From a virus: 23,594 bases of DNA. A program made the translations under genes and the position numbers. The notes under the pieces were generated by a model. That model was not told the origin of the DNA, did not search any database, and saw only the letters and a program-made list of their open reading frames with translations. Shown in pieces: positions 467 through 17,692 of this stretch; position 1 is the first letter of the stretch; every line of letters starts with the position of its first letter. The DNA is taken from positions 1 through 23,594 of the IMG/VR virus record IMGVR_UViG_3300044733_000677; one strand, given 5' to 3'.

Positions 467-576
467 TATTTATATTCCCCTTTCAGGATAAGTTCATCTA
501 ACCTTTTGGCTAGAGGGTCTATTTCTTCATCTGAGAGATAGTTTTCTAATTCTAATTGTTTAACAAAGTCTATCAT
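466..576 (-). CDS. Acidic 36-residue mini-protein
   Basis: This tiny gene starts at ATG 576-574, which overlaps the TGA of the zinc-ribbon-like gene upstream (ATGA). It ends at TAA 468-466, whose last base starts the next gene. The product begins MIDFVKQLELENYLSDEEID and is acidic and mostly helical by composition. No domain is recognisable. It is the second of four tightly coupled leftward genes, the kind of arrangement often seen for early phage genes that modify the host. Confidence 0.5.
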   Translation of the reverse strand: MIDFVKQLELENYLSDEEIDPLAKRLDELILKGEYK

Positions 577-755
577 TTAGACACCTGCCAAGATGTCCAC
601 ATTGGTAGACGTTCAGGGTCAGTATCGTTATACCAACGCTCAATATTATTTTCGCAAACTTCACAAAAAGTGAATTGCTCATCATTAACGTCTGAGATAG
701 CAGACTTATTTGGAACGTGTGTTTTACACACTTGGATTATTACATTTGAGTTCAT
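573..755 (-). CDS. Zinc-ribbon-like small protein
   Basis: This 60-residue protein is the first gene of the leftward mini-gene operon. ATG 755-753 is preceded by a strong AAAGGAG ribosome site (complement of about 762-768). The sequence has Cys10-x2-His13 and, 17 residues later, Cys31-x2-Cys34 (FCEVCENN), a spacing that could bind one zinc ion. Such small phage zinc ribbons often bind nucleic acid or protein, but the partner here is unknown. A plus-strand frame covers the same bases but lacks a ribosome site, so the minus reading is preferred. The TGA overlaps the next ATG. Confidence 0.65.
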   Translation of the reverse strand: MNSNVIIQVCKTHVPNKSAISDVNDEQFTFCEVCENNIERWYNDTDPERLPMWTSWQVSK

Positions 756-796
756 TAGAACTCCTTTCTAGTTTGAGAACCTTTCTCAACTTTCTT

Positions 797-811
797 TATA
801 CTAGAAGTATA
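797..811. promoter_or_regulatory. Palindromic promoter/operator, TATACT on both strands
   Basis: TATACT-AGA-AGTATA is a 6+6 inverted repeat with a 3-base centre. Each arm is a good -10 hexamer, one per strand. The minus-strand copy (811-806) is well placed to drive the leftward operon beginning at 755. A protein binding the palindrome would block it. Confidence 0.45.
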
Positions 812-828
812 ACAGCGACCACTGACAT

Positions 829-1028: not shown

Positions 1029-1057
1029 TTGACTTTTAGGATTATCTATGATAGGAT
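1029..1057 (+). promoter_or_regulatory. Sigma70-type promoter of the rightward mini-gene operon
   Basis: TTGACT (1029-1034) and TAGGAT (1052-1057) are spaced by 17 bases. The first gene with a clear ribosome site starts at 1259, so the transcript would have a leader of about 195 bases. Confidence 0.55.
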
Positions 1058-1090
1058 ACTCCTATAAATAAATAAAGAAAGATAGTCTCA

Positions 1091-1138
1091 ATGAGCCTAC
1101 CAAATAAACCTCAACAAGAGGGTGAGCGTAGCGAATAA
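1091..1138 (+). CDS. Possible 15-residue leader peptide
   Basis: A short frame (MSLPNKPQQEGERSE) starts about 27 bases after the expected transcription start, with an AAAGAAAG purine run before it. It lies at the head of the structured leader of the mini-gene operon. It could be a leader peptide whose translation affects downstream folding, or a chance frame. Its only support is position and the weak ribosome site. Confidence 0.25.
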   Translation: MSLPNKPQQEGERSE

Positions 1139-1140
1139 GT

Positions 1141-1236
1141 GGGGTATATCACACCACGACACTAGGGAAATACCCCCAAAATGTCAGTAGTATCTGATAG
1201 GATACTAGTATCAAGGTTAATCAAGGTGATTAACTT
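1141..1236 (+). promoter_or_regulatory. Structured 5' leader with competing stems
   Basis: Three structures lie between the promoter and the gene at 1259. GGGGTAT (1141-1147) can pair with ATACCCC (1170-1176). TAGTATC (1188-1194) can pair with GATACTA (1201-1207), but GATACT is also half of the perfect palindrome GATACT-AGTATC (1201-1212), so those two pairings exclude each other. GTTAATCA (1216-1223) and TGATTAAC (1227-1234) form a perfect hairpin just before the AAAGAAAGG ribosome site. This resembles an attenuator or other RNA switch, or a set of operator sites. Confidence 0.45.
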
Positions 1237-1258
1237 AGTAAAAAGAAAGGTAGTTAAA

Positions 1259-1474
1259 ATGACTACACTAAATACAATAACATTAGAGCCTAACCATGTT
1301 ATGGCTTCATCTAATACAGGAAGCCCTATGGTCTTTCGCAATACAGTAGGCAACTACATTAGCCGCAAGGCATACTTAGAAATGCTTGCTACTAAGCAAG
1401 GTGTGGTATCACACCGCTATCTATCACCTAACGAAAGCCGTTGGGTTATGAATAACATGAAGGAGTCTAACTAA
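1259..1474 (+). CDS. 71-residue mini-protein, first gene of the rightward operon
   Basis: ATG 1259 is chosen because AAAGAAAGG lies eight bases before it. The in-frame ATG at 1181 has no ribosome site and would run through the leader hairpins. The protein (MTTLNTITLEPNHVMASS...) has a basic middle (FRNTVGNYISRKAYLEML) and a C-terminal part with HRYLSPNESRWVMNN. It has no cysteines or membrane segment, and I do not recognise a family. Its stop overlaps the next ATG (TAATG), so the two are probably coupled. Confidence 0.6.
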   Translation: MTTLNTITLEPNHVMASSNTGSPMVFRNTVGNYISRKAYLEMLATKQGVVSHRYLSPNESRWVMNNMKESN

Positions 1475-1766: not shown

Positions 1767-1867
1767 TGGCTGAGTATTCTGCTGAGCAACTGAGAAGGCA
1801 AGCCCACCTAGAAAATGGTGGGACACTTGCTAACTATGATAGGGCACACTATACAGAGTCAGAGTAG
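1766..1867 (+). CDS. 33-residue mini-protein with GTG start
   Basis: GTG 1766 overlaps the TAG of the membrane protein (TAGTG). The product begins AEYSAEQLRRQAHLENGG after the start and is polar and helical. It is the last gene of the operon, and its stop codon forms the first bases of the terminator stem. No separate ribosome site is clear, so translation would depend on coupling. The family is unknown. Confidence 0.4.
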   Translation: MAEYSAEQLRRQAHLENGGTLANYDRAHYTESE

Positions 1868-1887
1868 TGTGCTCACTATTTTTTTTT
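1865..1887 (+). terminator. Rho-independent terminator of the rightward mini-gene operon
   Basis: TAGTG (1865-1869) pairs with CACTA (1874-1878) across a TGCT loop and is followed by an unbroken T run of about nine bases. It starts at the stop codon of the last mini-gene. Confidence 0.6.
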
Positions 1888-1959
1888 ATTTTTTATTTTT
1901 AAAATCACATATCATACATCTAAGAAAAATATTCAGATTTTTGTAAAATGAAAATTTTT

Positions 1960-15661: not shown

Positions 15662-17692
15662 ATGTCAGATACCTTTTCTTTTCGTTTACTAGAAGACTTC
15701 GTAGCAAAATACAAAGACACACCAGCACCATTTGGATTCTCAGATGCTGGATCAAACTCTCTTGGCGAAGTAACTTTTATACGCACCTATTCACGTATGA
15801 AAGAAGATGGTACAAAAGAAAGATGGTATGAAGTCTGCAAACGTGTAATTGAAGGTATGTACTCAGTTCAAAAAAACCATGCTAAAGAAAATCGTCTACC
15901 TTGGAATGACAACAAGGCTCAAAAGTCTGCTCAAGAAGCCTTCCAAAGAATGTTTGAATTAAAGTGGACACCACCAGGACGTGGACTATGGGCATTCGGA
16001 ACTCCCATGACTATGGATAAGCGTAATTCTGCTTCTTTACAAAACTGTGCAATGGTCTCTACTCGTGATCTTGATCGTAATGACCCAGGAGCCTTATTTT
16101 GTTGGGTAATGGACGCATTAATGTTAGGTATAGGAGTAGGGTTTGACACTCTTGGACAAGAAAAAGAGATGGTAATCTACGCACCAACTGAGCCACCAGC
16201 AGTATATGAAATTCCTGATACTAGAGAAGGATGGGTTGAATCTGTAAGATTATTAATAAATTCATACCTCCGCCCAAATCAACCTATACAACAGTTCACC
16301 TATGACCTTATTAGACCGTTGGGGGCACCTATCAAGGGTTTTGGCGGGGTAGCCAGTGGACCAGCACCATTAATAGATTTACATAACCGTATTACAAAGG
16401 TTGTAGGATCTAGAACAGGAGACAAGTTTGATTCTCGTGCAATTGTAGATATTATTAATCTTATTGGTACTTGCGTTGTTTCTGGTAATGTTCGTCGTTC
16501 CGCTACCCTCGCTTTAGGAAATGCAGAAGACAAAGACTTTAGTAATTTAAAAAATGCAGAAGTTTTTCCAGAGCGTAATTCTTATAATCCAAAAAATCCA
16601 GGGTGGGCTTGGATGTCTAACAACTCTATTGCTGCAGAGGTTGGAACAAACTATGAAGACTATGTTGATTTAATTGCAGACAATGGAGAGCCAGGATTTA
16701 TTTGGCTTGACGTTGCTCGTAACTATGGAAGACTTGCAGATGCACCAGATGGAAAAGATTATCGTGTAATGGGTTTTAATCCATGTGCAGAACAACCATT
16801 AGAATCATACGAACTATGTACATTAGTAGAAGTTCACTTAAACCGTCACGAAGATAAAGAAGATTTTCTTCGTACACTAAAGTTTGCGTATCTATATGGA
16901 AAGACTGTAACCCTGATGCCAACACATTGGCAAACCACAAATGGCATTATGCAACGTAATCGTCGTATTGGGACATCTTTAACTGGTATTGCATCTTTTG
17001 CAGATACAAAGGGTATGCCAGCAGTTCGTGAATGGATGAACGAAGGGTATAAAAAAATTAAAGCATACGATCATTCATATTCAGAATGGTTGTGTGTCCG
17101 TGAATCAATTCGTGTAACTACCGTAAAACCTTCAGGCTCTGTATCACTATTATCTGGCGCTACCCCTGGAGTTCATTGGGGTCCAGGAGGAGCATTTTAT
17201 TTACGTGCTATAAGGTTTGGAAATACAGATCCAATGCTTCATTTATTTAAAGCAGCAGGGTATAAAGTTGAAGCAGACTTAGTTTCTGCTAATACTTCAG
17301 TAGTATATTTCCCAGTAGCATCTGGACATCCCCGCTCTGAAAAGGATGTAAGTCTTTTTGAAAAAATTGGTTTGGCAGCAACTGCTCAAAAATATTGGTC
17401 TGATAATGGGGTTTCTGTAACTCTGTCTTTTGATAAAGAAACAGAAAAGAAGCATGTGGCTCCAGCCCTTCATCTTTATGAAGGTGAGTTAAAGGCTGTT
17501 TCGTTTTTACCTATGGGTAATGAAACATTTCCGCAACAACCATACAATAATATTACAAGAGAAGAATATAATTCTTACGTAGGCAAAATTGCAAAAATTG
17601 ATTGGTCTGCAATTTATGATGGCGTAGAAAATCTGGAAGCACAGGGTGAGGCTTATTGCAGCACAGACGCTTGTGAAATCAAACTATACTAG
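15662..17692 (+). CDS. nrdJ: Adenosylcobalamin-dependent (class II) ribonucleotide reductase, monomeric type
   Basis: The 676-residue enzyme reduces ribonucleotides, in this subclass usually triphosphates, to deoxynucleotides using a radical made from adenosylcobalamin. Key residues known from the Lactobacillus leichmannii enzyme are present. Cys129 (SLQNCAMV) and Cys386 (SYELC) form the active-site pair. Cys375 in FNPCAEQPLE is the thiyl-radical cysteine with Glu377, and the Cys375-to-Cys386 spacing of 11 is as in that enzyme. Cys666 and Cys671 (YCSTDACEI) form the C-terminal relay pair. TTVKPSGSVSLLSGATPGVH is the phosphate-binding loop. All catalytic cysteines are kept, so it should be active. 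It leads the B12 module, and the next gene follows after nine bases. Confidence 0.92.
   Translation: MSDTFSFRLLEDFVAKYKDTPAPFGFSDAGSNSLGEVTFIRTYSRMKEDGTKERWYEVCKRVIEGMYSVQKNHAKENRLPWNDNKAQKSAQEAFQRMFELKWTPPGRGLWAFGTPMTMDKRNSASLQNCAMVSTRDLDRNDPGALFCWVMDALMLGIGVGFDTLGQEKEMVIYAPTEPPAVYEIPDTREGWVESVRLLINSYLRPNQPIQQFTYDLIRPLGAPIKGFGGVASGPAPLIDLHNRITKVVGSRTGDKFDSRAIVDIINLIGTCVVSGNVRRSATLALGNAEDKDFSNLKNAEVFPERNSYNPKNPGWAWMSNNSIAAEVGTNYEDYVDLIADNGEPGFIWLDVARNYGRLADAPDGKDYRVMGFNPCAEQPLESYELCTLVEVHLNRHEDKEDFLRTLKFAYLYGKTVTLMPTHWQTTNGIMQRNRRIGTSLTGIASFADTKGMPAVREWMNEGYKKIKAYDHSYSEWLCVRESIRVTTVKPSGSVSLLSGATPGVHWGPGGAFYLRAIRFGNTDPMLHLFKAAGYKVEADLVSANTSVVYFPVASGHPRSEKDVSLFEKIGLAATAQKYWSDNGVSVTLSFDKETEKKHVAPALHLYEGELKAVSFLPMGNETFPQQPYNNITREEYNSYVGKIAKIDWSAIYDGVENLEAQGEAYCSTDACEIKLY

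Follow-up and report, generated by a model that had tools for sequence, protein, structure and literature searches.

A putative cis-acting leader RNA of new architecture in the presumed early control region of freshwater actinophages

The put RNA of phage HK022 is a structured RNA of two-stem-loop form that lies directly after the early promoters, sometimes one per direction. The MS2 replicase operator is a translational operator at a start codon, a hairpin that holds the AUG, and the UAA/GAN internal-loop module is a known RNA loop module. In the Cluster K mycobacteriophages, repeated sequences named ESAS and SAS occur upstream of small genes, and the ESAS are 17-bp imperfect inverted repeats placed beside the start-associated sequence GGGATAGGAGCCC, with many per genome (PMC3203893, PMC12699233). 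The element described here lies in a window of 23,594 nucleotides, which is the whole stretch of viral DNA that was analysed, and it is best described as a phage leader RNA, putatively cis-acting, whose architecture is new.

The original prediction dealt with positions 1141-1258 of the window, where it saw mutually exclusive hairpins in the form of an attenuator, an RNA switch or a cluster of DNA operators ahead of an operon of mini-genes. We compared the sequences upstream of the 71-aa mini-gene in its 24 IMG/VR relatives, and the informative structure lay outside the flagged span, in a covarying element upstream of it and in a hairpin over the start codon downstream (Table 1). The element reads in order outer helix, UGAGC, CUAC, CAAAUAA, hairpin, UGAGC, GUAG, CGAAUAA, outer helix, which amounts to a rod-like arrangement of two UGAGC/CRAAUAA internal loops set in opposite orientation about a 4-5 bp helix. 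In the DNA the two copies of TGAGC-N4/5-CRAATAA occupy 1092-1107 and 1123-1138, and in relatives whose sequence reaches far enough the motif is found downstream of P1 once, twice or more. The middle 4-5 bases pair between copies, as CTAC/GTAG, CTAG/CTAG, CTTAG/CTAAG, CTAAG/CTTAG, CTAAT/ATTAG or CTAGG/CCTAG.

Table 1. Predicted features of the control region and the adjoining operons, in window coordinates.
Feature	Position	Strand	Support or remark
First gene of leftward operon	573-755	-	
Start-codon hairpin of leftward first gene, GAGTTC-TAAT-GAACTC	748-763	-	
Inverted repeat of leftward promoter, TATACT-TCT-AGTATA	797-811	-	
Putative leftward promoter, TGTCAG-N10-TATACT	806-827	-	pattern match; same class as P2
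Putative promoter P1, TTGACT-N17-TAGGAT	1029-1057	+	identical or similar in relatives
Inverted repeat of P1, ATAGGA-TAC-TCCTAT	1051-1065	+	
Structured RNA element, 65 nt, just after P1	1083-1147	+	covariance model and covariation; core 1092-1138
Crp-family-like site, AGTGGGGTATATCACA	1138-1153	+	GTGACCTAAATCAC or a like sequence here in relatives
Putative promoter P2, TGTCAG-N10-TAGGAT	1182-1203	+	predicted start ~1210
Arms of the mutually exclusive pairings: TAGTATC (spacer of P2) and GATACTAGTATC (1201-1212, inverted repeat over its -10/+1)	1188-1212	+	
Pre-SD hairpin, GTTAATCA-AGG-TGATTAAC	1216-1234	+	differing self-complementary counterparts in relatives
Ribosome site, AAGAAAGG	1243-1250	+	conserved in relatives
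Start-codon hairpin, GTAGTT-AAAAT-GACTAC	1250-1266	+	covariation, 11 sequences; G of ATG in stem
Early mini-gene, 71 aa, family without assigned function	1259-1474	+	24 relatives in IMG/VR
Probable intrinsic terminator at the end of the mini-gene operon	1862-1888	+	like sequence 0.46-1.2 kb past the element in relatives

An alignment was built of 57 distinct copies from a pattern scan of IMG/VR, among the matches listed, and RNAalifold recovered the same helices from it unaided. In these copies 91.6% of the element's cells were paired, against 64.7% after shuffling; double-change cells numbered 142 against 41.5 ± 4.8, although the copies are related and such cell counts overstate independent events; and the covariation score was 0.624, compared with 0.06-0.16 for slid structures. 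Since a match to the scan pattern had to contain TGAGC, CRAATAA and part of the middle helix, selection accounts in part for how little these positions vary; no such requirement applied to the outer helix or the hairpin. A test free of that selection came from a second early family collected by protein homology alone, where 55 of 61 distinct upstream sequences held the exact double element and 3 more held it with a one-base change, CGAGC in one copy. With the covariance model the window copy scored 72.2 bits and no other site in the window rose above noise. The structure of the element is almost certainly real. A K-turn reading was dropped on inspection by eye, the loop being without the GA/GA layout. 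The constant orientation of the element to promoter and gene argues for a role as RNA over one as DNA, for example as an origin.

The pattern scan placed the element in at least 119 IMG/VR stretches, in one-, two- and three-unit forms at the early control regions of probable actinophages; among the matches listed there were 12 one-unit forms and 17 with three nested units, and the helices were complementary throughout. Among 24 large contigs, two lack the element and the other 22 carry one or two copies, arranged in tandem or divergently. A generic leader repeated genome-wide was ruled out, since there are only one or two copies per contig. Genes that come first past the element fall into about 31 families, with products of 28-98 aa, and mostly begin 25-75 nt away, again among the matches listed. 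Rfam 15 gave no match in the window above the curated threshold, and a search of four relatives at E ≤ 5 returned nothing beyond tRNAs and chance hits. Neither the window nor an element had a useful Blast match among named phages, and the element was not found in the related named phage DSL-LC01. The 23 pattern matches in cellular genomes were on inspection all simple tandem arrays without the element's architecture, and those searched with the covariance model scored below 30 bits against 56-73 for nearly all phage copies. Such arrays in bacterial genomes (L145-L167), with words like TGAGCGAAGCGAATAA, are unrelated to the element and can fool a pattern search.

Concerning the host, WhiB is considered an actinophage marker (PMC6802176). 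A profile search over whole contigs detected WhiB in 15 of the 24 large contigs, a regular expression run on the short loci only did not find it, and the closest relatives of the window's ribonucleotide reductase are those of an Actinomycetia phage and a mycobacteriophage. From the WhiB genes and the reductase, the host is most likely a freshwater actinobacterium. The reductase is of the B12 type (15662-17692), and an S-adenosylmethionine decarboxylase-like gene lies at 1960-2364 on the minus strand. In the large contigs the control region has operons of small genes on both sides, running leftward and rightward, and the operons are called early from this gene layout, as the promoters are called from consensus. 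The two downstream mini-gene families matched no Pfam family above cut-off, both mini-gene families were absent from the named phages searched, the mini-genes of the window had no PHROG match, and the predicted folds of the two mini-gene proteins were poor (pLDDT 57 and 61). Words of the form GACACGCCGT recur about the control region, at 93-107, 159-173 and 1010-1019, and in many relatives they appear upstream of promoters as CGGCGTGTC.

Between the element and the SD, all 58 distinct leaders examined from the second early family (gathered by protein homology) have TGTCRG, exactly 10 nt and TANNNT, where 0.08 would be expected in shuffled sequence. Because this layout is fixed in all of them and is present in the window both there and leftward at 827-806, we read 1182-1203 as a promoter, P2, with transcription starts placed from consensus. 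Compared with a sigma-70-type promoter, in which -35 and -10 stand 16-18 nt apart, P2 has a -10, TAGGAT, preceded by TG, and a TGTCAG box conserved at fixed spacing; the -35, CCCAAA, is poor, so that use of P2 in the window would rest on the TGTCAG box, and promoters of this class may need a phage or host activator. A TTGACT-class promoter precedes 105 of 183 distinct elements, and a promoter of either the TTGACT or the TGTCRG kind precedes 162 of them; the TGTCRG-N10-TANNNT class stands directly upstream of the element in 57 cases. At each of the three putative promoters in the control region an inverted repeat spans -10/+1, and its arms differ from one promoter to the next. Across 23 non-redundant promoters the mean arm was 3.65, against 2.66 ± 0.22 with right halves swapped (0/2000), and a larger, redundant promoter set agrees. 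Such repeats may serve as operators, or may reflect melting or hairpin formation. Crp-family-like sites of the form TGTGRNNTANNTCACA lie near promoters at 868-883, 992-1007 and 1138-1153, and in many leftward elements the hairpin has the sequence TGTGA-N6-TCACA as well.

The inverted repeats that had drawn attention to 1141-1258 are where they were reported: GGGGTAT (1141-1147) with ATACCCC (1170-1176), TAGTATC (1188-1194) with GATACTA (1201-1207), GATACT (1201-1206) with AGTATC (1207-1212), and the perfect hairpin of GTTAATCA (1216-1223), AGG and TGATTAAC (1227-1234). The pairings of GATACTA do exclude each other, as their arms overlap. In 2000 dinucleotide-preserving shuffles of the span, three or more perfect inverted repeats (arm ≥6, loop ≤8) arose in 1.6% and an arm of at least 8 in 1.7%; the span folds at -29.0 kcal/mol, 3.0 sd below the shuffles. 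TAGTATC is the P2 spacer and reads CCCCCCGTGA or similar in other leaders. GGGGTAT falls inside both the Crp-family-like site and the element's outer helix, and its pairing is broken in the one informative relative, L005 (GAGACAA/ATACCCC), where the outer helix of the element is instead made perfect by GTCTCA/TGAGAC; the matching place in the window is CUCA/UGGG of that helix. The pre-SD hairpin is supported, since unrelated sequences at that place in relatives also pair (GTTAGC-AAATC-GCTAAC, GGTTAAA-AGG-TTTAACC). It had been said to touch the ribosome site, a contact that is loose, its stem ending 8 nt before AAGAAAGG.

At the start codon of the mini-gene, the hairpin was 100% paired in 11 sequences, with 16 double-change cells against 3.9. 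Five of its six pairs covary, and codons 2 and 3 change in step with the untranslated side. In phage slices it occurs at 22 of 133 SD-bearing starts, compared with 7.9 ± 2.5 when upstream parts were swapped, and all 22 belong to small genes, mostly near the starts of early operons in both directions; the leftward gene at 755 of the window is one of them. In both directions these hairpins accompany the SD AGAAAGG, and their stem sequence is free to vary.

Comparison among relatives shows, with high confidence, the predicted structure of the element, the fixed layout of the putative P2 and the start-codon hairpin, all placed at the first genes of presumed early operons. In the explanation that we favour, the 5' leader of the P1 transcript would fold into the element, and P2, downstream of it, would yield a transcript without the element, beginning near 1210 and directly ahead of the pre-SD hairpin; the SD and start-codon hairpin would be common to both. 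From the near-invariant loops we infer reading by a conserved partner. The element would then be a cis-acting docking site in which each internal loop makes one binding unit, and the candidate partners are a host RNA-binding protein, an RNase, the ribosome, RNA polymerase or a phage protein. Most likely, the bound element would act on the stability or translation of the P1 mRNA, and P2 would supply mRNA free of its control. Taken as a whole, with P1 and P2 as tandem rightward promoters in the early control region of a phage of freshwater actinobacteria and the element as a docking site on the P1 mRNA, this explanation is in our view somewhat more probable than not. A wider proposal, in which stackable UGAGC/CRAAUAA loops define a modular class of phage leader RNA not described before, which would bring a machine of the actinobacterial host to the early transcripts and work alongside the standard SD and the start-codon hairpin at the first gene of every early operon, is tentative and falls short of even chances.

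A nascent element could instead bind host RNA polymerase so that terminators are ignored, as with the put RNA of HK022. The element does stand about 20-30 nt past the predicted start, a contig has one or two, sometimes one for each direction of the control region, there is no obvious protein partner, and the hosts apparently belong to one phylum. However, a conserved terminator closes several rightward operons, among them that of the window, 0.46-1.2 kb further on, and beyond it genes lie on the opposite strand, so read-through would be of little use; because of the window's operon terminator and its counterparts we regard such antitermination as unlikely. A partner may also be dispensable if the element is a physical 5' barrier to exonuclease, as its generic use before some 31 gene families, near the 5' end and often followed by further hairpins, would suit, but a barrier has no need for near-invariant UGAGC and CRAAUAA bases, which are kept even in leaders found by protein alone, and we give it slightly less credit than antitermination.

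The readings first offered for the flagged span are partly supported. A cluster of DNA operators came closest: the inverted repeats at 1051-1065, 1201-1212 and 1216-1234 would be repressor sites, 1182-1212 is indeed a putative promoter with an inverted repeat and 1138-1153 is Crp-like, P1, P2 and the leftward promoter each have a -10/+1 repeat, and non-redundant promoters exceed their swapped controls. Nevertheless, within one phage the arms vary from promoter to promoter, as the operators of one repressor do not, and the covarying element and start-codon hairpin are left unexplained, so operators as the whole account seem about as improbable as the barrier. A switch or attenuator in which the arms at 1188-1212 choose between two states is the least probable reading and a very improbable one, with the exclusive arms and the stable fold of the span in its favour. 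No terminator-like site was found between 1064 and 1258, no T-run terminator separates leader and gene, and the predicted folds leave the SD free, so neither state is tied to a terminator or a masked SD, which disfavours both a classical attenuator and a riboswitch. Leaders with the same layout do not preserve the left arm, and both arms coincide with P2; the alternative pairings are probably mostly a by-product of its -10/+1 inverted repeat. The 15-residue frame once noted upstream is the RNA element and not a gene: in relatives it runs to 5-80 codons, 22 of 57 are without ATG, and no conserved short reading frame, as in a leader-peptide attenuator, was found in the 57.

Freshwater actinobacteria are among the most abundant bacteria of lakes, and to our knowledge gene control in their phages has been little studied. 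The element is short and sharply defined, its loops are near-invariant, and many unrelated phage genes share it, so it could readily be used as bait for the factor it would recruit. The start-codon hairpin provides a second testable rule for the setting of early translation in these phages.

Among known systems, the MS2 replicase operator resembles the start-codon hairpin in holding the AUG, but the stem here is free to vary, so sequence-specific binding is unlikely. The strands of the element's internal loops hold UAA and GAG, reminiscent of the UAA/GAN module, in a longer and asymmetric loop (5 and 7 nt). With put the element shares its position just after early promoters, these being called by consensus and 'early' by gene layout; operons here, in contrast, often end at early terminators, and the likeness is one of position. 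Two defining features separate the element from ESAS/SAS: in place of GGGATAGGAGCCC at the start codon there is the ribosome site AAGAAAGG and then a hairpin, and in place of 17-bp inverted repeats the element has direct repeats, 16-17 nt long, whose middle 4-5 nt pair with each other. Moreover, the direct repeats (TGAGC-N4/5-CRAATAA) are promoter-proximal and number one or two per contig, whereas ESAS are many per genome. ESAS/SAS is still the nearest described system in setting, as both occur in actinophages, upstream of small genes, as paired repeats with a variable spacer.
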